From a virus: 64,000 bases of DNA. The DNA lies in the IMG/VR virus record IMGVR_UViG_3300035698_018280, positions 1 to 64,000 of that record; one strand, written 5' to 3'. The notes under the pieces are model-generated. The model was not told where the DNA came from. It did no database searches and worked only from the letters and a program-made list of their open reading frames with translations. Position numbers and translations under genes: made by a program. This document shows, piece after piece, positions 1,970-61,824 of the stretch; the first letter of the stretch is position 1, and every line of letters begins with the position of its first letter.

Positions 1970-2653
1970 TTAGACAAATTTTGCGAGGAAGAAAACTTCT
2001 TTTAAACCAGATTTTGCGCCTTCAGCCTCTTTTCTAGCTGAATGAAACCTATATCCACCCATTATTATCTCAAAATCTCCTAATGAAGAAAAATCATCCC
2101 AAATCTCAGGATACTTAGAAGCATCTTTGAAATAGTTAGTATTCTGAGCAAACTCTGGATGCATAATATTGAAAACGCTGGGATGATTGGCGTTTAGTTT
2201 ACCCTGCCTAGGTAAAGAGATAAAAACACCCCTCTTACAAGTTTTTCTAATCTGAGATAAAACCGATTCAGCATCCCACATATGTTCTAATGAATGAGAC
2301 GAGTAAGCAACGTCAAAGCATTCGTGCCCGAATTTATCTCCAAGATCATGAGCGTCAATTGGAAGAACGAGCTTATTATTATTGTCTGAAATATCAATAC
2401 CTATTGCATCATGGCCTCGGTTAATGAAGGACATAACTTCAGAATCATCGCGAGCGCCAATACAGACAATATTTAATACCAGGCCAAACGCATCTGAAAT
2501 ATTAAAAATATCTTCAATTCTCTTAGGTTCAAGAGATTTTGTTATACGAGATTTATTACCAGAATGCTCGCTCTTTTGCGCAGCAAGATAATCTTCATAC
2601 GGTACTTCAAGTCTCTTCATTTTGCTTACGCCTAATTTCTCCAATACGATCAT
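1970..2653 (-). CDS. Class I SAM-dependent methyltransferase (Methyltransf_11 type)
   Basis: A Rossmann methyltransferase. Motif I is altered (NIVCIGARDDSE), followed by GIDIS at the end of strand 2 and DVAYSSHSLEHMWDAES, the usual post-motif of small-molecule methyltransferases. The start is uncertain. The ATG at 2651-2653 gives 227 residues, and an internal ATG at 2618-2620 (MKRLEVPYED) gives 216. Both overlap the end of the split dehydrogenase gene. It is the last gene of the sugar operon. The substrate is probably a sugar or glycan intermediate, inferred from context. Confidence 0.75.
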   Translation of the reverse strand: MIVLEKLGVSKMKRLEVPYEDYLAAQKSEHSGNKSRITKSLEPKRIEDIFNISDAFGLVLNIVCIGARDDSEVMSFINRGHDAIGIDISDNNNKLVLPIDAHDLGDKFGHECFDVAYSSHSLEHMWDAESVLSQIRKTCKRGVFISLPRQGKLNANHPSVFNIMHPEFAQNTNYFKDASKYPEIWDDFSSLGDFEIIMGGYRFHSARKEAEGAKSGLKEVFFLAKFV

Positions 2654-2885
2654 TGGAGTTCAGAACCTCTCGCAGCAAGGCTGGCTCGTACCCTAGATGG
2701 CTGGCGGCCTCTACTAGGGCAGAAACATCTTTTGGAAAGCAGTTATGACTTACAATTCCTGTTCCCTGTTCAATCCAAAACAAATCATCATTCATTGGAT
2801 TATCATCTTTACTTTCAAGATGAAGATTATACACTTTGTCGTTGAATCGTTCTTTTGATATGTTTGTTATTTTCACGGTATTCAT
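2607..2885 (-). CDS. C-terminal split intein fused to C-terminal part of nucleotide-sugar dehydrogenase
   Basis: A 92-residue protein in two parts. Residues 1-48 are the C-terminal half of an intein: VYNLHLES matches block F and GTGIVSHN is block G with penultimate His and final Asn. Residues 49-92 (CFPKDVSALVEAAS...) are the end of a UDP-sugar dehydrogenase. Joined to the N-part at 3603-4754 they rebuild FGGK+CFPKD, the active-site motif of this enzyme family. The intact relative at 13143-13958 reads FGGVCLPKD at this place. The start ATG overlaps the endonuclease stop (ATGA) and has a TAGGAG site. Confidence 0.9.
   Translation of the reverse strand: MNTVKITNISKERFNDKVYNLHLESKDDNPMNDDLFWIEQGTGIVSHNCFPKDVSALVEAASHLGYEPALLREVLNSNDRIGEIRRKQNEET
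2742..2885 (-). other. Split intein, C-terminal fragment (IntC, 48 aa)
   Basis: The segment ends in SHN, with Cys as the first extein residue. It contains a basic N-terminus (MNTVKITNISKERF), which would complement the acidic tail of the N fragment. It is somewhat longer than the roughly 36-residue IntC of DnaE-type split inteins. No endonuclease residues are attached. This fits a naturally split, trans-splicing intein. Confidence 0.88.
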
Positions 2886-3646
2886 ATGCTTACTCCTAAC
2901 TTGATAAGATCTTTTTTGAATAATACTCGAATTTCAATATTCGGATTATGTTGTTTTATAGCAGAGAATTTTGTTTCATCATAAAAATATTCAGCTTTTA
3001 CATCTGCGTAACATTTCCATTTATCTATCCAGAAATCAGGATAGTAGTTTTTGTTTATTCCATTTTTGATATAAGGTATCCGCCCTTTGTGGCATTTGAA
3101 ACTCAGGTTATTTGTGTCTAACCAATTTATAAATGCTAATTCCCATGTTCCTTGTACCTTGTATGTCTCTCCATTTGAATGCTTGTAATCATACCATTTA
3201 CACTGACCTACTCTAACTCCGTCGAACTTTCCATTTGCCCAAGCATCTGCCGTATTCTTGGCTATCCTTTTTCTAAGTTCAGGGTCGTTGCGCATTCTTT
3301 CTTTTCTGGTGTTAGACATTTTCTTTCTAACATCAAGACGTTTCATACCGTTCTTGTTGCCAGCATTTATCTTTCTTTGTTTCGAAGTCTTAGATATTTG
3401 CTTTGCTAACTCAGGGTTTTTCTGCCTCATGATCTTGAGAGATTCAGACATTTTATTTCTATATTCTGGTTGCTTGTTTCTTAAAGATTGCCAGCATCGT
3501 TTGCAGTAATCTTTATCGCAAAGAGGATTCTCTTTCATCTTTTCATGACTGCGCCTGAGTCTGGAGTAGATTACACCACAATCATCACAAGAAAATTCTA
3601 TTTTAGAGTAAGGTTTTATCTTCTCCATCATCGGAGACAGTTGCAT
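2882..3646 (-). CDS. Free-standing homing endonuclease, zinc finger + NUMOD3-like repeats + PD-(D/E)XK/Vsr-like nuclease
   Basis: A 254-residue protein inserted exactly between the two halves of the split intein. The start ATG (3644-3646) has a strong AGAAGGAG site that lies inside the N-intein coding sequence. The N-terminus has a Cys finger (CDDCG, then CDKDYCKRCW). The middle repeats basic motifs (KMSESLK, KQISKTSKQRK, KKMSNTRKERM) like NUMOD3 DNA-binding modules of homing endonucleases. The C-terminus has GTWELAF, YYPDFWI and YADVKAEY, the E...PD...DxK layout of PD-(D/E)XK and Vsr-like nucleases. It probably spreads the intein insertion. The overlap with both flanking genes shows a well-settled arrangement. 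Confidence 0.82.
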   Translation of the reverse strand: MQLSPMMEKIKPYSKIEFSCDDCGVIYSRLRRSHEKMKENPLCDKDYCKRCWQSLRNKQPEYRNKMSESLKIMRQKNPELAKQISKTSKQRKINAGNKNGMKRLDVRKKMSNTRKERMRNDPELRKRIAKNTADAWANGKFDGVRVGQCKWYDYKHSNGETYKVQGTWELAFINWLDTNNLSFKCHKGRIPYIKNGINKNYYPDFWIDKWKCYADVKAEYFYDETKFSAIKQHNPNIEIRVLFKKDLIKLGVSI

Positions 3647-4754
3647 GGTTTTCTCCTTCTGCCGCAAAGTGCTTACCCTTTTTAGTACAGAAAAATTCAT
3701 CTGACTCCTTTATCTCTTTAGCTTGAATTACCTGTATTTCTCCATTTCGCAAAACTGGTATAAAATGTTCAGGAGTACATTTGAACTCTCCAGCGTCAGT
3801 TTTAAACACATAAAGTTCACCGTTGTAGTCTCTACAGGTCACTTCTAATATTTTTTTATCATCTAAATTCATTTCGGAATTTACTGATTCAATTACAGGC
3901 GAAAAGTATATATTTTGAGATTTCAAATTTTCTTGTATTTCATACAGCTTATCAATACGATAATTCCCATAAGATGCGGGAATATCGCCTACCACGTTTA
4001 CTAGAGCATCCCCAGTAACACACTTGCCCCCAAACGGCTTTTCGCTCTCAGAAAAGACAGCCGTATGCATAGGATTAATGCGGGGATCAAGAAGCCACGC
4101 CTCTCTCAGCTTGTAATAATCAACACCTAGCTTCTTGCAAATCTGGTCAATTTCATAACAGAACGTAACCTTCATTGCATAAAAAGTGTTTTCTACATAC
4201 TTTGAAAGCTCAGCAGTCAAAGTATCGGTTTGATGGTATACCTTTGTCGGTCCAACTACCTTGATAAAGAATTCGACACATGCCTCGGTGTCAATGCCGT
4301 CTCCGCCGAATGCGAACCAAGGCGTTTCCTTGACATCGGTATGAAATTTGTATTCAGTCCAATACTTTGATTCGCCGCAATACTCAGGAGAAAATACAAT
4401 TCGTTTGCCAGTCTCCTCCTTGAGCTTATTAGTAGTCCCAGGCTCGACTGTGGACTTGATAAGGAATAATGGCGCATCAATGGATCGCAAAGCCTCTTCA
4501 ACCAATGACGTATCGCAGAAGCCCTTCTCGTCCTTCGGTGTTGGAAGAGATATAACAACTAGATCGCATCCGTTTGCTTCAGCATAATTGTTAGTTTGAA
4601 TTCTTGATAAACCTTCTGCATTAGTAATTTTGCTATCTGCTGATGAGCCAGAAAATTTAGTATCTACAATGACCAAATTATAATGATCTCCGAAGAACTC
4701 ATCCATTGCCTTCCCAACGTAACCGTGACCGATAATAGCTATTTTCTTACTCAT
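3603..4754 (-). CDS. N-terminal part of nucleotide-sugar dehydrogenase fused to N-terminal split intein
   Basis: Residues 1-244 are a UDP-glucose/UDP-ManNAc dehydrogenase-type enzyme: IAIIGHGYVGKAM (NAD-binding), VVISLPTP, IKSTVEPGTT, FSPEYCGE and AELSKYVENTFYAMKVTF. The frame then runs from FGGK straight into CVTGDALVNVVG, an intein block A with Cys1, and later GEFKCTPEHF, block B with TxxH. It ends in an acidic tail. The catalytic cysteine and C-terminus are encoded separately at 2607-2885. With both exteins joined the enzyme is 288 residues, close to the 271-residue relative at 13143. Neither half can be active alone, which is inferred from the missing catalytic Cys. Confidence 0.92.
   Translation of the reverse strand: MSKKIAIIGHGYVGKAMDEFFGDHYNLVIVDTKFSGSSADSKITNAEGLSRIQTNNYAEANGCDLVVISLPTPKDEKGFCDTSLVEEALRSIDAPLFLIKSTVEPGTTNKLKEETGKRIVFSPEYCGESKYWTEYKFHTDVKETPWFAFGGDGIDTEACVEFFIKVVGPTKVYHQTDTLTAELSKYVENTFYAMKVTFCYEIDQICKKLGVDYYKLREAWLLDPRINPMHTAVFSESEKPFGGKCVTGDALVNVVGDIPASYGNYRIDKLYEIQENLKSQNIYFSPVIESVNSEMNLDDKKILEVTCRDYNGELYVFKTDAGEFKCTPEHFIPVLRNGEIQVIQAKEIKESDEFFCTKKGKHFAAEGENHATVSDDGEDKTLL
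3606..4022 (-). other. Split intein, N-terminal fragment (IntN, 139 aa)
   Basis: The fragment begins at Cys245 of the fused protein (codon 4020-4022). Block A is CVTGDALVNV, and block B has the TPEH form of TxxH. It ends in EGENHATVSDDGEDKTLL and a stop, with no block F or G, so it can only splice in trans with the fragment at 2742-2885. Confidence 0.9.
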
Positions 4755-47756: not shown

Positions 47757-49799
47757 TTATTCATCGCCAAACATATCGTCTGACTCCAATCCTTTTCGAC
47801 GAGATTTCCTTCTGTCTTCCCGTAGTTCACCAAACTCTTTTACAACATCTTCAGACTTACGTTTTTTCGTTCTACCAGTCTTCATATCTTTCTCTCTAAA
47901 GAAGCCAGCAATCGCCAGGCATTCTGCACTTTTTGCATCAACAAACTTTGGATCAGTATTGAAAGCAAAATCTCTCATATCCGAATACGGCTGCTTGGCC
48001 TCAATCTCTGTAGCCGCTCGGTGGCTCATACCCTTACAACGAAGCGAAGGTCTGATCTGAGACTTATGAACACCGTTTGACGGATCTTTGCGGACAACAA
48101 TTTCGTAGTCATAACTACACTTGTTGATACTACGAGGAAGAACGTCCATATTCATCTTGCCGCAATCTTTTTCAAACTGCACAATCTTTTCATACTTATC
48201 AGCTTTTTTACTTCTCAATAAAACATTCATGTATGATGTCATAAACTCTTCAGGATAATGAGTTTTCAGATAAGCAGTTGTATACGATAAATAAGCATAA
48301 CAAGCGCTATGAGATTTATTAAATCCATAATCAGCAAAGGGAGTAATAAACTTATCCCAATACTGTTGCGCAACTTCTTCAGGAACATTGTTGACTTTAC
48401 AGCCGTCAATAAACTGAATTTGATACTTATTCATGAGTTCCGGTATTTTCTTACCGACTGCTTTGATCATAGCATAACCATCAGTAATAGAAAAACCAGC
48501 AAGAGAATTACAGACTTGCATCAACTGTTCTTGATAACAAAGAACTCCGTATGTAGGTTCTAGATATTTTCTAACATAAGGCTCAATAGACTCATGAAAA
48601 TATCCAACAGGTTCTTCGCCTTTCTTACGAGAAGAATATAATGGAATTGATTTCATAGGCCCTGGACGATACAAAGCTACTCCTACAATGACATCTTCAA
48701 AACGATTGACTCTAAGTTGTCGCATCGTTTGTTGCATACCTGGATTTTCGCATTGGAAAACGCCATTGAGTTTGCCGCTTCGATATAGATTTAGTGTATC
48801 CTTATCGTCAAGAGGCATATTCTCTACATCAATTGTAATTCCATAATTTTCTTTAATAAGTTCTACTGTCCGACGAATAACTGCCAATGTTGATATGGCA
48901 AGAATATCAAATTTGATAAGACCCATAAACTCAAGGTCTTCATATGCATATTGCGTAGCAAGTTCATAATGAGTACCCTTACCTTCTTCGTCTGCAACTT
49001 TCTTTCGGCTTAGCCTCAGAGGAGCAATAGACTGAAGAGGTACGCTAGAAATAACAATTCCGGCAGCATGAACGCTAAAGTTAGATAGTAATCCCTGAAT
49101 ATTGGGCGAATGCTCAAGAAGCTCAGGATATTTATCCACATATCTTTTAAAGTCATCGCAATATTTTGCCCCATCTGCAACAGTCCTGATAACGACATCA
49201 TTACCCTCCTCATCGGTGGCCCTGATGTTTGCCCCGACCTGTTTTGGAAGAGATTTTGCTATCTCGTCCCCTCTATCCTGCGTTTCCTTGCGCCAACGTT
49301 CCCTGTTCTCATTCCTAACAGTCTTGCTCTCGTGAAGAGCCATAGTAGGTGAAAATACTTTATCAGGATCCAGGGCTCTAAACCCTTGGCGAATATAAGA
49401 CTTAAGCTTCAACGACTGATAAGTACCGATATTACCAACATGGTCTCTACCATACTTGTCAATAATGTAAGTATAAATTTCATCGCGAAACTCATCATCA
49501 AAATCAGAATCAATATCAGGAAAGCCCTTACGAGCAAAACAACGACGAATAGGAAGAAATTCTTCGTCCTCTGGTCTTTTCTCAGTTATACCCAATAGAT
49601 AAGCTGTATGAGAATTGATCTTATTAGTCTTACCGATAAGACTCTTCTCTTTAGCGCTCTTCCACATATTATAAAACTTAAGGAGAATAGGCTCTCCATC
49701 AAGATTATCGGTTTGAGCCATAAAGTCCAATTCTTCTCGAACTTTATCAGTGGCTTTACTTCCAATAGTTTCAAGAATCTCTTGTTTGATCTTGTTCAT
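47757..49799 (-). CDS. dnaE: DNA polymerase III alpha, C-terminal part (catalytic palm, fingers, HhH)
   Basis: A 680-residue protein. GFPDIDSDFDDEFRDEI (residues 93-108) carries the two catalytic Asp, and LIKFDILAIS (Asp298) the third. LYRPGPMKSIPLY, LEPTYGVLCYQEQLM and FNKSHSACYAYLSYTTAYL are finger-domain signatures. KGMSHRAATEI is a helix-hairpin-helix. The chain stops there, lacking the OB and tau-binding domains. Residues about 56-92 (NSHTAYLLGITEKR) resemble the GRGSxxGS palm segment but with the GS part lost. That segment is kept in the partner gene. Confidence 0.92.
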   Translation of the reverse strand: MNKIKQEILETIGSKATDKVREELDFMAQTDNLDGEPILLKFYNMWKSAKEKSLIGKTNKINSHTAYLLGITEKRPEDEEFLPIRRCFARKGFPDIDSDFDDEFRDEIYTYIIDKYGRDHVGNIGTYQSLKLKSYIRQGFRALDPDKVFSPTMALHESKTVRNENRERWRKETQDRGDEIAKSLPKQVGANIRATDEEGNDVVIRTVADGAKYCDDFKRYVDKYPELLEHSPNIQGLLSNFSVHAAGIVISSVPLQSIAPLRLSRKKVADEEGKGTHYELATQYAYEDLEFMGLIKFDILAISTLAVIRRTVELIKENYGITIDVENMPLDDKDTLNLYRSGKLNGVFQCENPGMQQTMRQLRVNRFEDVIVGVALYRPGPMKSIPLYSSRKKGEEPVGYFHESIEPYVRKYLEPTYGVLCYQEQLMQVCNSLAGFSITDGYAMIKAVGKKIPELMNKYQIQFIDGCKVNNVPEEVAQQYWDKFITPFADYGFNKSHSACYAYLSYTTAYLKTHYPEEFMTSYMNVLLRSKKADKYEKIVQFEKDCGKMNMDVLPRSINKCSYDYEIVVRKDPSNGVHKSQIRPSLRCKGMSHRAATEIEAKQPYSDMRDFAFNTDPKFVDAKSAECLAIAGFFREKDMKTGRTKKRKSEDVVKEFGELREDRRKSRRKGLESDDMFGDE

Positions 49800-50140: not shown

Positions 50141-51535
50141 TTAATACCTATCTACTCCGCCCATATCGTCTTCAAACTCTCGATCCAGAGCGGCGGTTTC
50201 AATAAACAACTCTTCTGCAGATTTGGCTTCATCTAAACCAAAATCGCTCTCTTGCAGGAATCTCTTGTCATCGAAGCCCAAGAATCTTTCCCAAAGAAGT
50301 CCATACTCCAATGGATCTGGCCCATATGCAATACCAAGGCAACGTAAAAGCACGCTGCCGTATCCTGAACCCCGGCCGCATCCGGTCAAGATGTTTCGCC
50401 TTCGAGCTTCCATCATGTAGTCTCGAACAATAAGTAGATACGTTGCAAAGTCATATTTATTATTATCCCATGCAACTTTGATATCATCCATTTCGAGTTT
50501 CAATCGAGCTATATGTTCAGGACTCTGCGCCCATCCTAATTTCTGAAGACCGTCGTTTGCCAACTGCCCCATGTAATCATGAGGAGATTTAAAACTTTTA
50601 GGTATATCGAATCTAGGCAGTCTCATACCGCTTGTCATATTTGTAAGTATATCGGTAGTGTCAACCTTGTCGGCAACAAGCATGGTATTCGTCAGAAGCT
50701 CAGGATGCGTTCCAAATGTCTTAGACATTTCAGCAGCCGACTTTAGATAGAACTCACTGTAAGGAAACTTGATGCGGCTAGGATCGCTGAAGCAACGAGA
50801 AGTTGACATTGCCATTAGAAGCTCATGAGATTTGCCCTGGCATTTTTCGCAATAGTGACAATCATTAGTAGCATGAACGCATACATCCATGTCTTTACCA
50901 AGCTTGAGAATATCCGGGATAATCATGCCTTCAGCATCTATACCATGATACATAGCCTCAAGATGAAAATCTTTATCGAATATGTCTTTAAAAAGGGCAA
51001 CGGCCTTCTTGGCCTGATCGTAACGGTCATGCAACAAGTTAGCATTGATAACGCTACTTAGACAAGCAGAAGTGCAAATAAGCCCTTCGCTATATTTACC
51101 AAGAAGATCAAAATCTATACGAGGATCAAAGAAATAACCTTCGGTCCAGCTATGCTCAGAAAGACGACAAAGGTTCTGGTATCCTGTCCAGTTTTTAGCA
51201 ATCAAAACAATATGTCTATTGCCCTTTCGCTTGTCTGGTTGTTCTTGTACTGAATGAGCGTGCCTGTCTTTGGACAAATAAAACTCGCAGCCTACGATGG
51301 GCTTGCATGTTGGAATCTCGTTTCCATGCTCATCTTTAGCAGGCTTTAGGCATTCCTGCATAAACTTGATAGCACCAGCCATGTTTCCATGATCAGTCAT
51401 GGCAAGGGCCTTGAATCCTTTTTTGCGAGCAGCAAGAGGAAACTGTCCTATCTTATTTAGCCCATCAAAAGATGAGTATTCAGTATGGTTATGAAGGTGA
51501 CAAAAATCGGCGTTAGTGATACGAAGTTTTCCCAT
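50141..51535 (-). CDS. dnaE: DNA polymerase III alpha, N-terminal part (PHP domain and first palm segment)
   Basis: A 464-residue protein. CHLHNHTEYSSFDG (His13, His15), MTDHGN, IVGCEFYL (Glu84) and ATNDCHYCEKC give the PHP metal set, apparently intact. The palm begins TGCGRGSGYGSVLLRCLGI (GRGS 387-390), then YGLLWERFL. Where the catalytic PDxDxDF should follow it reads LQESDFGLDE (residues 428-436), so the catalytic Asp pair is lost here. Those Asp residues are in the C-part at 47757-49799. GGGAG precedes the ATG. Confidence 0.92.
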   Translation of the reverse strand: MGKLRITNADFCHLHNHTEYSSFDGLNKIGQFPLAARKKGFKALAMTDHGNMAGAIKFMQECLKPAKDEHGNEIPTCKPIVGCEFYLSKDRHAHSVQEQPDKRKGNRHIVLIAKNWTGYQNLCRLSEHSWTEGYFFDPRIDFDLLGKYSEGLICTSACLSSVINANLLHDRYDQAKKAVALFKDIFDKDFHLEAMYHGIDAEGMIIPDILKLGKDMDVCVHATNDCHYCEKCQGKSHELLMAMSTSRCFSDPSRIKFPYSEFYLKSAAEMSKTFGTHPELLTNTMLVADKVDTTDILTNMTSGMRLPRFDIPKSFKSPHDYMGQLANDGLQKLGWAQSPEHIARLKLEMDDIKVAWDNNKYDFATYLLIVRDYMMEARRRNILTGCGRGSGYGSVLLRCLGIAYGPDPLEYGLLWERFLGFDDKRFLQESDFGLDEAKSAEELFIETAALDREFEDDMGGVDRY

Positions 51536-58719: not shown

Positions 58720-61700
58720 CTAGTCAATATCAATGTGATCTGCTATTGATGAGCCGCTATGAGCATCATTCTTTCCGATAAGCGGAACGTCAGGCTGCCC
58801 ATCGCCGTCTACATCAGTATTAGCAAAAACGCAGTTCTGTTTTGCCCATGCCCTCATCTCAGAAAGTTCTGTTTTACGAATTTCAGATAAGGGTTTCATA
58901 TTGCTTACAGAATCAAGTATATCTTTTGTTCTTAGCTTTCGTTTTTTAGATTTGAAAGCAATAAACATTCCTGCATCTATAGCTTTTTCAATTTCTGCGC
59001 CGCTATAACCGTTAGTCTTCTCAGAAAGTTTTTCAATATCAAACTTTTTAGGATCTAATTTCTGTTTCTTCAATAGAATATCAAAGATTTGCTTGCGTCC
59101 TTCAAGACCAGGTAAATCAATCCAAAACACTTCATCAAATCTTCCTGCTCGCATAAATTCGGGCGGAATATCTAACACGTTATTGGCAGTAGTAACTACA
59201 AAAACAGGTTTTGTTTTTTCTTGCAGCCATGTCAGGAATGTAGAGATTACTCGCTTTGTCGTACCAGAATCCCCCGAGCCTGCGCCAACGCCGCCCGACA
59301 ACCCTTTCTCAATCTCATCGCACCAAAGAACGCAGTTGTGACAAAGAATTTCATTAGCAACAAAGTTATGGTTTCCTTCGCATGCCAGATCGTAAGCCCA
59401 CTTAGTTCCGACCTCTTCAATCTTTGTAACTTTCATACCAACAAGATCGCAACATATAAGATCAACAATAGAATCTTTAGTTACCTGGTTATTTTGAGTT
59501 CCATTTTTGTTACTAAGCGTCTCGGCAATAGCCCATGCTTTTATAAACGGTACTATAGAACCTTTTTCATAGTGAGTCATTGACTGAGAAGCAATAGGGA
59601 AATCATTTTTAGTAAGACCGTAGAAGATTCTCTCTTTCAAGAGAGAATTTCCAAGCTTATACCCAATGCTGCGATTTTCTTTACCAAATTTATTGCTGAC
59701 TATATAGGCAAGATCAGTCGAAAGACTATCTACTTTTAGGTCCATAGCAATAGCCAATGCCTCGATATCGTCGGCATTCTCGATAGATATCTCCATGCCC
59801 CTAGCAGGCTCCTTATAAGATATTACGCCAAAAATATGAATCGCTTTTCTAATCCGCATTCTATATACGGGATCAGTTGATTGTAATTTAAATATAATCT
59901 TCGATTTGTTATCATTCTCAATAATTTCGCCAGAAGTATCAAACATACCGCTCAAAAAATTGCGAACGTACTCGTCTTCTTGCGCAAATAATTCATCTCT
60001 AGCATGATTGAGAATATCAGCTACAATTTTATTACTTACCTTGATATTATAACCGCATGATGTTTTTTCAAGGGCTGGTTCAACCCCGAACATGTCAGCC
60101 ATTGCATTGACAATAAGATACGACTTATCCAGTGTGCCCGCCTTGAAATGAACCTCTCCTTTAGAGATATCAATCCAGCCACATCCGTGAATAGCACCAA
60201 CAAGATAATAGACTAAACAGCGGTTGAATCCGCTCAACAAAGTTACATCATGATATTCGCCTTCGAATTTACCAGCAATTTTATTACAACCGTTTTTATC
60301 TCCTGGTTTAAAAGTGTCATAAGGAATAGAGATAGCTTCTTTCCAGTTTGTCTCTCGCCCTCGACGCATAAAATACTTAGGCGTCATAACTAAATCGCCC
60401 TTTTCAATATCTTTAGCTTCAACCCATTTGAGATCGCCATCTCGATTAACCATAATCTTATGATCTTTAGTAACTTCAATGGAAGTCGTTGCTGTTTTAA
60501 TTCGGATCATCGCTTTTTTCTTGGCGTGTCTAATAACTGTTCGAACCCGAGTCGGTTCCATCTTCTTTTGTTCTTCATTGAATGCATAAATAAATAGCTC
60601 TTCTTTACTAAACAGCCTCTTATCATCTGCAAGATCAGAAATTCTGTGTTGTACGCCATCTATATCATAGATAATTGAATCACCGGATACGCATGGAGCA
60701 ATAGTCTCAGCCAACTTGATAGCAGCACGGGCTGTTTTTTCAGACTCGCCAACCAGCGAATCAAACATACGGCCAAAATCGAGACGAAGCAGAGGCATAC
60801 CGTAATCCTTAGCAATTGCTTTTGCCGTTAGACTCTTTCCTCCGCCAGGCACACCAAGCAGCATGACTCCTTTAGGCATTTTCAAACCGTATTCCTGCGC
60901 CTCATGAGAAAAGGCCAGTTTGCGATCATGGAGCCAACCTATCATATTGTCCAAACCGCCGACATCCGCAAGAGAAACATTTGGATCTACATATTCAAGG
61001 ATGTCTGTCTTGCGAATTATCGATCTTTTTTCCTTCATCAATATTTCTAAATCAAACGGATTATGACCAAGCTGGTTAGCCATAACCATTGATTTGAAAA
61101 ATGCGGCTTGCGCTTCTGTGAGAGTTAGTCCCTTTACCGAATTGACCAGGTCTTCTCGATTTTCTTCTACATATTTTATTACATCAGGACAATGAGGAAA
61201 GGCGTTTTTATTGTCCCCAATAAGCGAAACAGCTTCATCAAGAATTTCATTAACCTCGTATTCATTCGGATATGGAAAATCAAGTGCAGCCATATCTTTG
61301 TCGAGAGACGCTGTGCTTGTGAAAGAAGGCCCTGTTAGTATGACGCTAGCAGCCTTAGACTCAGACGAAAGGTACTTCAAACGCCGCTGGATGGCAGGTG
61401 CAGGCGGTTTCAAATAACGATAGAAATCCAACAGGACATACAAATTGCCGTTGCTCGGTTTAGCATTAGTCGAAGAAGATTCTGCCTTGTTCTTATTTTT
61501 TCTCTTGTTGATTTGAAATTTTTCAATTTGATCTATAACAAAATTGAGTGTAGTTTCAGGATTAGTGAAATCAATTTTATTGTTGCCGTCTACGTTGACA
61601 GGCTGACGACCATCGAGATGCCGTAAACCTTTATAACAATCCCAAACATATCCAACGTAATTGCGAGCTTCACAAAGATTTTCAACGTGAGCCAGGAATC

Positions 61701-61824
61701 TCTTCTCTTCATTTGTAGAAACAAAGATCAGAGGTTGGCGACTTTTGATAAGTGCCAGTAAACCATTATTGAACTCAGGTGTTGCGCATAATGAAAATAA
61801 CTTCTCTGCTTCGATATTTGACAC
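58720..61824 (-). CDS. AAA+ ATPase (Ycf46-like) interrupted by an intein
   Basis: A 1034-residue precursor starting with GTG (GGAG six bases upstream). N-domain: FNNGLLALIKSRQPLIFVST resembles cyanobacterial/plastid Ycf46. ADVGGLDNMIGWL and LLGVPGGGKSLTA (Walker A, 324-331) follow. The intein begins at Cys378 and ends at Asn830. The extein resumes CVLWCDEIEKG (Walker B, DE 836-837), then VVTTANNVLDIPPEFMRAGR (second region of homology). The spliced product would be 581 residues. Function unknown; a protein- or DNA-remodelling ATPase. Confidence 0.9.
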   Translation of the reverse strand: MSNIEAEKLFSLCATPEFNNGLLALIKSRQPLIFVSTNEEKRFLAHVENLCEARNYVGYVWDCYKGLRHLDGRQPVNVDGNNKIDFTNPETTLNFVIDQIEKFQINKRKNKNKAESSSTNAKPSNGNLYVLLDFYRYLKPPAPAIQRRLKYLSSESKAASVILTGPSFTSTASLDKDMAALDFPYPNEYEVNEILDEAVSLIGDNKNAFPHCPDVIKYVEENREDLVNSVKGLTLTEAQAAFFKSMVMANQLGHNPFDLEILMKEKRSIIRKTDILEYVDPNVSLADVGGLDNMIGWLHDRKLAFSHEAQEYGLKMPKGVMLLGVPGGGKSLTAKAIAKDYGMPLLRLDFGRMFDSLVGESEKTARAAIKLAETIAPCVSGDSIIYDIDGVQHRISDLADDKRLFSKEELFIYAFNEEQKKMEPTRVRTVIRHAKKKAMIRIKTATTSIEVTKDHKIMVNRDGDLKWVEAKDIEKGDLVMTPKYFMRRGRETNWKEAISIPYDTFKPGDKNGCNKIAGKFEGEYHDVTLLSGFNRCLVYYLVGAIHGCGWIDISKGEVHFKAGTLDKSYLIVNAMADMFGVEPALEKTSCGYNIKVSNKIVADILNHARDELFAQEDEYVRNFLSGMFDTSGEIIENDNKSKIIFKLQSTDPVYRMRIRKAIHIFGVISYKEPARGMEISIENADDIEALAIAMDLKVDSLSTDLAYIVSNKFGKENRSIGYKLGNSLLKERIFYGLTKNDFPIASQSMTHYEKGSIVPFIKAWAIAETLSNKNGTQNNQVTKDSIVDLICCDLVGMKVTKIEEVGTKWAYDLACEGNHNFVANEILCHNCVLWCDEIEKGLSGGVGAGSGDSGTTKRVISTFLTWLQEKTKPVFVVTTANNVLDIPPEFMRAGRFDEVFWIDLPGLEGRKQIFDILLKKQKLDPKKFDIEKLSEKTNGYSGAEIEKAIDAGMFIAFKSKKRKLRTKDILDSVSNMKPLSEIRKTELSEMRAWAKQNCVFANTDVDGDGQPDVPLIGKNDAHSGSSIADHIDID
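59335..60693 (-). other. Intein (453 aa) with degenerate LAGLIDADG endonuclease
   Basis: It starts CVSGDSIIYD (block A), with IEVTKDHKIMV as block B. It ends WAYDLACEGNHNFVAN (block F) and EILCHN (block G: His-Asn), followed by Cys. The inserted endonuclease has LVGAIHGCG in place of LAGLIDADG and LSGMFDTSG in place of the second motif. The catalytic Asp is Cys in one and Ser in the other. Splicing residues appear intact, so it should splice but not home. Confidence 0.9.

Follow-up and report, generated by a model that had tools for sequence, protein, structure and literature searches.

Several described inteins resemble the element analysed here. The Pyrococcus horikoshii VMA intein PhoVMA (PDB 7qst) lacks the active-site acids in both LAGLIDADG motifs (blocks C and E) and exemplifies progressive degeneration of the homing endonuclease (HEN) domain (PMC8966425). 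Many yeast VMA nucleases are dead, and the Candida glabrata intein lacks both Asp residues (PMC1508164), while the mycobacteriophage TerL1-e intein sits at the Walker B motif of its host protein (PMC5050341). The element described below is, like PhoVMA, a LAGLIDADG intein within an ATPase that has lost both acids and kept the fold; unlike PhoVMA, which interrupts an archaeal V-type ATPase and whose second motif is partly deleted, it has full-length, substituted motifs and lies at Walker B in the AAA+ protein of a phage. With the inactive yeast VMA inteins it shares a conserved splicing domain and a faster-evolving LAGLIDADG domain minus both Asp residues, although those inteins reside in a nuclear yeast gene and are unrelated in insertion site and sequence. 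As with TerL1-e, a phage intein lies at an ATPase Walker B motif, and inteins in that gene also favour the P-loop; the TerL1-e host is a terminase, whereas the host here is a Ycf46-like AAA+ protein. Disarmed LAGLIDADG inteins and Walker B inteins are already known, and what is new is a sister intein, in the locus L047, that is disarmed at the same site. Our search of the Ycf46 and the intein plus Walker B literature (open-access titles and abstracts) found no report of inteins in the Ycf46 ATPase family.

The window, a stretch of 64,000 nucleotides, belongs to an IMG/VR virus record of 163,887 bases. Its ATPase precursor is encoded in one open frame (Table 1) and matched Pfam AAA (6.4e-22) and, above its cut-off, AAA_lid_3, as well as phrog_8638 of PHROGs (E=2.6e-120). 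Walker A, Walker B, sensor 1 and the AAA lid are all present, and the motifs are invariant in the alignment. Identity between the C-extein and chromosomal AAA proteins, which come from many phyla and whose loci carry no gene names, reaches 54%; the protein is called Ycf46-like here and is presumably a member of that family. Genes for a DnaC-like loader, a DnaB helicase and a primase zinc finger lie next to the ATPase gene, and ORFs of like size follow in the same order downstream of the ATPase of the relative L002, which points to the ATPase gene being part of a replication region.

Table 1 Features of the ATPase precursor, its intein and the split UDP-glucose dehydrogenase (UGDH) gene in the window.
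Feature	Position	Strand	Basis or detail
Ycf46-like AAA+ ATPase precursor gene	58720..61824	-	1034 aa, GTG start; 581 aa after splicing; one open frame
N-extein, residues 1-377, Walker A inside	60694..61824	-	Alignment
Walker A GVPGGGKS	60832..60855	-	Intact, intein-free in the window phage
Intein, 453 aa, precursor residues 378-830	59335..60693	-	Pfam, NCBIfam, intein-free homologues
N-terminal splicing region, residues 1-108	60370..60693	-	Cys1 60691-60693; TKDH 60460-60471
Central homing-endonuclease region, residues 109-405; LAGLIDADG fold ~158-317	59479..60369	-	Model, Foldseek, profiles
First LAGLIDADG motif LVYYLVGAIHGCG	60178..60216	-	Catalytic position Cys171, 60181-60183, TGT
Second LAGLIDADG motif YVRNFLSGMFDTSG	59929..59970	-	Catalytic position Ser254, 59932-59934, TCT
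C-terminal splicing region, residues 406-453, last two His452-Asn453	59335..59478	-	NCBIfam, alignment, model
C-extein: Walker B, sensor 1 (TANN), GRFDE motif, lid	58723..59334	-	Pfam and alignment
+1 Cys (59332-59334) and Walker B CVLWCDE, first part of C-extein	59314..59334	-	Alignment
UGDH N-half with N-intein (N-intein 3606-4022)	3603..4754	-	Pfam, NCBIfam
Free-standing endonuclease-like ORF between UGDH halves	2882..3700	-	Pfam, PHROGs
UGDH C-half: C-intein MNTVKITNISK..GIVSHN, then CFPKD	2610..2885	-	Active-site Cys is +1

The element interrupting the ATPase matched Pfam Intein_splicing (E=8.6e-21) and exceeded the cut-offs of both the N-terminal (TIGR01445) and C-terminal (TIGR01443) NCBIfam intein models. 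It starts with Cys1 in block A (CVSGDSIIYD), carries T75-K-D-H78 in block B, in agreement with TxxH, and ends in H452-N453 followed by a +1 Cys, residues by which it is classed as a class-1 intein. When the exteins are joined (ETIAP/CVLWCDEIEKG, the slash marking the junction), they align with ETISPCILWCDEIEKG of the intein-free homologues L002 and L013 with no gap at the junction and 49% identity, which fixes the boundaries. The initial annotation, made from the sequence alone, had proposed exactly these intein coordinates and named the same splicing residues (Cys1, TKDH, His-Asn and +1 Cys), all of which we recovered. It was also right in placing the insertion before Walker B, but not in placing it between the strand and DE: the insertion point lies directly ahead of the Walker B strand and leaves all of CVLWC joined to DE on the C-extein side. 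Of the 121 distinct phage rows, 97 have Cys at the +1 position, for the most part with no intein present, so the residue is native to the ATPase family. Extein-profile scans of viral contigs, with each locus checked, gave 120 distinct homologues besides the window, only five of which have an intein at the Walker B site. With Walker A on one side of the insertion and Walker B, sensor 1 and the arginine-finger region on the other, it is plausible that the unspliced precursor has no ATPase activity.

The motifs of the central domain end in GCG (motif 1) and TSG (motif 2), so that both catalytic positions are non-acidic, as had been claimed. A single sequencing error accounts for neither substitution, because turning the codon of C171 or of S254 into one for Asp takes two or more base changes. 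Aligning the intein with eight further LAGLIDADG inteins of phages, the comparison that had been proposed as a check, showed Asp or Glu in the motif-1 column of seven, L251a having Asn, and Asp in the motif-2 column of all eight; the window intein has at neither motif end the acid that active LAGLIDADG enzymes carry there. Together with the rarity of insertions at the Walker B site, these columns mark the finding as more than chance. The register of motif 2 is firm, being set by Pfam LAGLIDADG_3 (residues 241-296), hhalign, hmmsearch and the intact inteins found by pattern scan, which read FLSGMFDGDG where the window reads FLSGMFDTSG. That of motif 1 was set by MAFFT, by eye and by position, and the profile search did not recover this motif. 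The window domain scored 17.1 bits against LAGLIDADG_3, below the cut-off of 22.5, whereas all seven intact comparators, and also L251a, passed the LAGLIDADG_2 or _3 cut-off; the L047 HEN gave no match to the Pfam LAGLIDADG profiles. As hhalign with the whole intein returned the splicing part only, HEN-only profiles were compared instead.

An AlphaFold model made with L047 as sole companion (pLDDT 34) was discarded in favour of a run with 11 inteins, whose overall pLDDT was 64.6; most values lay at 80-94 in the splicing part and at 65-85 over residues 160-310. The latter model contains two alpha-beta-beta-alpha-beta-beta-alpha repeats with LAGLIDADG helices, and a Foldseek search of the PDB matched it to TliVMA (4e-16), PI-PfuI (2e-15) and PhoVMA (2e-12), further to PI-SceI and to I-DmoI (TM 0.67 by target length). 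By its predicted fold the central domain is thus a double LAGLIDADG repeat, a line of evidence that is not fully independent, as the AlphaFold alignment contains recognised LAGLIDADG inteins. The model is too coarse to show whether a nearby acid could rescue metal binding.

A contiguous intein of 435 aa occupies the same site in L047, which comes from a distantly related phage, and is homologous along its whole length (tblastn 1e-60). Its motifs, LAVISGMIDSSG and YLGGHFHASG, have Ser at both catalytic positions, so both acids are gone there too. The two inteins are 33% identical overall, with 47-51% in the splicing parts and 25% in the HEN, as expected if splicing had been held and the nuclease had not; the HEN similarity nevertheless scored 170 against 37 +/- 7 in shuffles. 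Window and L047 exteins are sisters in the tree (support 100/99), and the C-exteins are 62% identical. Four-fold degenerate sites are at or below saturation in both main extein parts and in the HEN, the sole stretch somewhat above saturation being 22 sites between Walker A and the intein. With synonymous sites saturated, either the joint occupancy and the disarmed state are old, or disarming happened twice; two sequences fit one ancestral loss and two separate losses alike. A two-row profile search found the L047 intein only, searches with the intein alone turned up nothing closely related in viral contigs, genome contigs or phages, and pattern scans for near relatives of both motifs gave intact inteins that are not close, unrelated matches or nothing.

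Very probably, then, this class-1 intein has reached the late phase of the homing cycle, in which splicing alone is left, and is an old resident that entered before the window and L047 lineages split. An ancestral entry is supported by the shared site, the homologous inteins and the sister exteins. An intein with a LAGLIDADG nuclease would have entered ahead of the Walker B codons in the common ancestor of the two phages, at a point where a native Cys could already serve as +1 nucleophile. Once the site was occupied or fixed, the nuclease would have lost its metal-binding acids (now C171 and S254 in the window), while the splicing residues would have been retained because only splicing rebuilds the ATPase, as their conservation suggests. 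The precursor, made as one chain, would splice autocatalytically through a thioester at Cys1, transesterification to the +1 Cys and cyclisation of Asn453, yielding an ATPase of 581 aa with Walker A and Walker B restored. The intein would not cut intein-free alleles and would not home on its own. Both the splicing and the loss of cleavage are predictions from the residues kept and lost.

An alternative explanation is that the nucleases were active in both lineages until shortly before the present and were lost in two recent, independent events. The motif 1 residue differs between the two inteins (Cys and Ser), and constraint on the HEN before its inactivation would account for the remaining similarity. 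We nevertheless consider recent losses unlikely, although possible, as all four catalytic positions are non-acidic with Ser at motif 2 in both inteins, each window codon has moved two or more base changes away from Asp and both HENs fall under a Pfam cut-off that intact ones pass.

It is also conceivable, if doubtful, that the dead domain was kept for another job, either in support of folding or of the splicing rate, or in DNA binding without cutting as in WhiA and LAGLIDADG maturases; selection would then act on the scaffold and put up with the loss of cleavage. The domain has stayed open over 280-300 aa in two lineages despite saturated synonymous sites, and the residues that pack the motif helices are kept (G166, I168, G172, L247, G249, F251 and G255) while the acids are gone in both. 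The fold search that found the homing endonucleases also matched WhiA and the bI3 maturase, which are LAGLIDADG proteins with other roles, and HEN aid to splicing has been proposed for the TliVMA and MvuTFIIB inteins (PMC8966425). Against this, the HEN is much less conserved than the splicing parts, splicing in itself already requires an open frame across it, and it is near neutral (pI 6.6, charge -1), compared with one basic intact comparator (pI 9.2). The hydropathy correlation at differing HEN positions (r=0.35; 0/5000 permutations) was dropped as evidence of constraint, since alignment alone gave 0.25 +/- 0.07 and the signal stands about 2 SD over the aligned null. The further proposal that selection keeps the domain for such a non-homing role (splicing aid or timing, or WhiA-like DNA binding), making the intein a domesticated conditional switch at Walker B and not a parasite in decay, appears quite doubtful.

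Continued activity through a shifted or unusual catalytic residue is very improbable. Secondary residues do vary among LAGLIDADG enzymes, and D252 lies two residues ahead of S254, but D252 corresponds to the first D of the motif, which in this family is not the metal ligand, and the comparators hold the acids at the C171 and S254 columns as given above. That the intein has lost splicing and left the ATPase a pseudogene can barely be credited, given an open frame, splicing residues kept in both lineages past synonymous saturation and a C-extein that is still close to that of L047.

Taken alone, the ATPase intein, read as a late-stage resident, is an ordinary one, and its insertion site is more useful. 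L073, L112 and L132 carry split inteins at the same codon, the two halves flanking a free-standing HNH-type ORF (in L073 the HNH families were assigned by PHROGs), and L107 has a contiguous, nuclease-free mini-intein of 177 aa at the Walker B site. Genes fractured by split inteins around free-standing endonucleases were reportedly described by Dassa et al. in 2009 (cited in PMC10448857); L073, L112 and L132 show this layout at Walker B, as does a split intein in the window's UGDH gene, unlike the window ATPase intein, which is contiguous and has its own dead LAGLIDADG domain. Occupied Walker B alleles are scattered among empty ones (five changes on the tree), and the splicing parts found at this site cluster weakly, with the window UGDH split intein included (78/94); together these patterns fit repeated gain and loss. 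A search of the window's record for an L132-type HNH gene that might act in trans found none; it had no positive control and shows little.

The Walker B site is, on these sequences, an intein hot spot, and the Walker A loop (P-loop) is a second one. Walker A loop inteins occur in L047, L068, L100, L107, L111, L112, L074 and L080, frequently combining a short N-half (about 25 aa) with an endonuclease ORF (L068, L100 and L107) or a remnant of one (L047 and L112), and both sites are occupied in L047, L107 and L112. In L047 (6917-7108) the endonuclease ORF between the P-loop split-intein halves is cut down to a C-terminal remnant. The P-loop split intein of L112 (1982-4093) is apparently re-fused into one open frame through an endonuclease-gene remnant (..YSPDFIVDGKVLVEVKPK..), which suggests a conversion from the split to the contiguous form by deletion. 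A single codon in one phage gene family can thus be seen empty, with a split intein and an HNH gene, with a mini-intein and with two old disarmed LAGLIDADG inteins, alongside the P-loop hot spot. This makes the homing cycle, and persistence of dead nuclease domains by chance or by use, comparable inside one family, and it offers several natural split inteins, including ones with a short N-half, for protein engineering.

The window UGDH is a fractured gene (2610-4754) split at GGK/CFPKD (Table 1). The initial annotation had announced a split intein in the same phage, which these halves bear out, and two inteins at different evolutionary stages; the latter holds in outline, the UGDH split intein having kept a long free-standing endonuclease ORF. 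The window's DNA polymerase III alpha is encoded by two ORFs in different frames (47757-49799 and 50141-51535) whose profile matches partly overlap; this split DnaE was rejected as the announced split intein because neither ORF contains intein sequence. A long minus-strand run of glycosyltransferase- and methyltransferase-like genes takes up a large share of the window (5000-30600).

The far end of the same record (L280, 85-1848) contains the C-terminal part of another LAGLIDADG intein with an intact MMAGDGYV and an apparent end at VQGN/T, cut by the record end; by this match a third intein is present, at least in part, in the window phage record. The phage to which L047 belongs has a terminase-like ORF (L251, 1453-3744) with two back-to-back inteins in its P-loop and zero extein residues between them (GRR/CLSENS..ICHN/CISEDG..IVSN/SGKDF), so that Cys1 of the second doubles as the +1 residue of the first. 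The pair is 36% identical, with a decayed first LAGLIDADG motif in the first copy and an intact second copy; our keyword search of the literature found no paper on adjacent or nested inteins. Judged by intein-like matches, the clade of the window phage and its relatives is unusually intein-rich: among 17 related virus records, every relative checked has at least one such match, and about six places in the L047 phage carry inteins.
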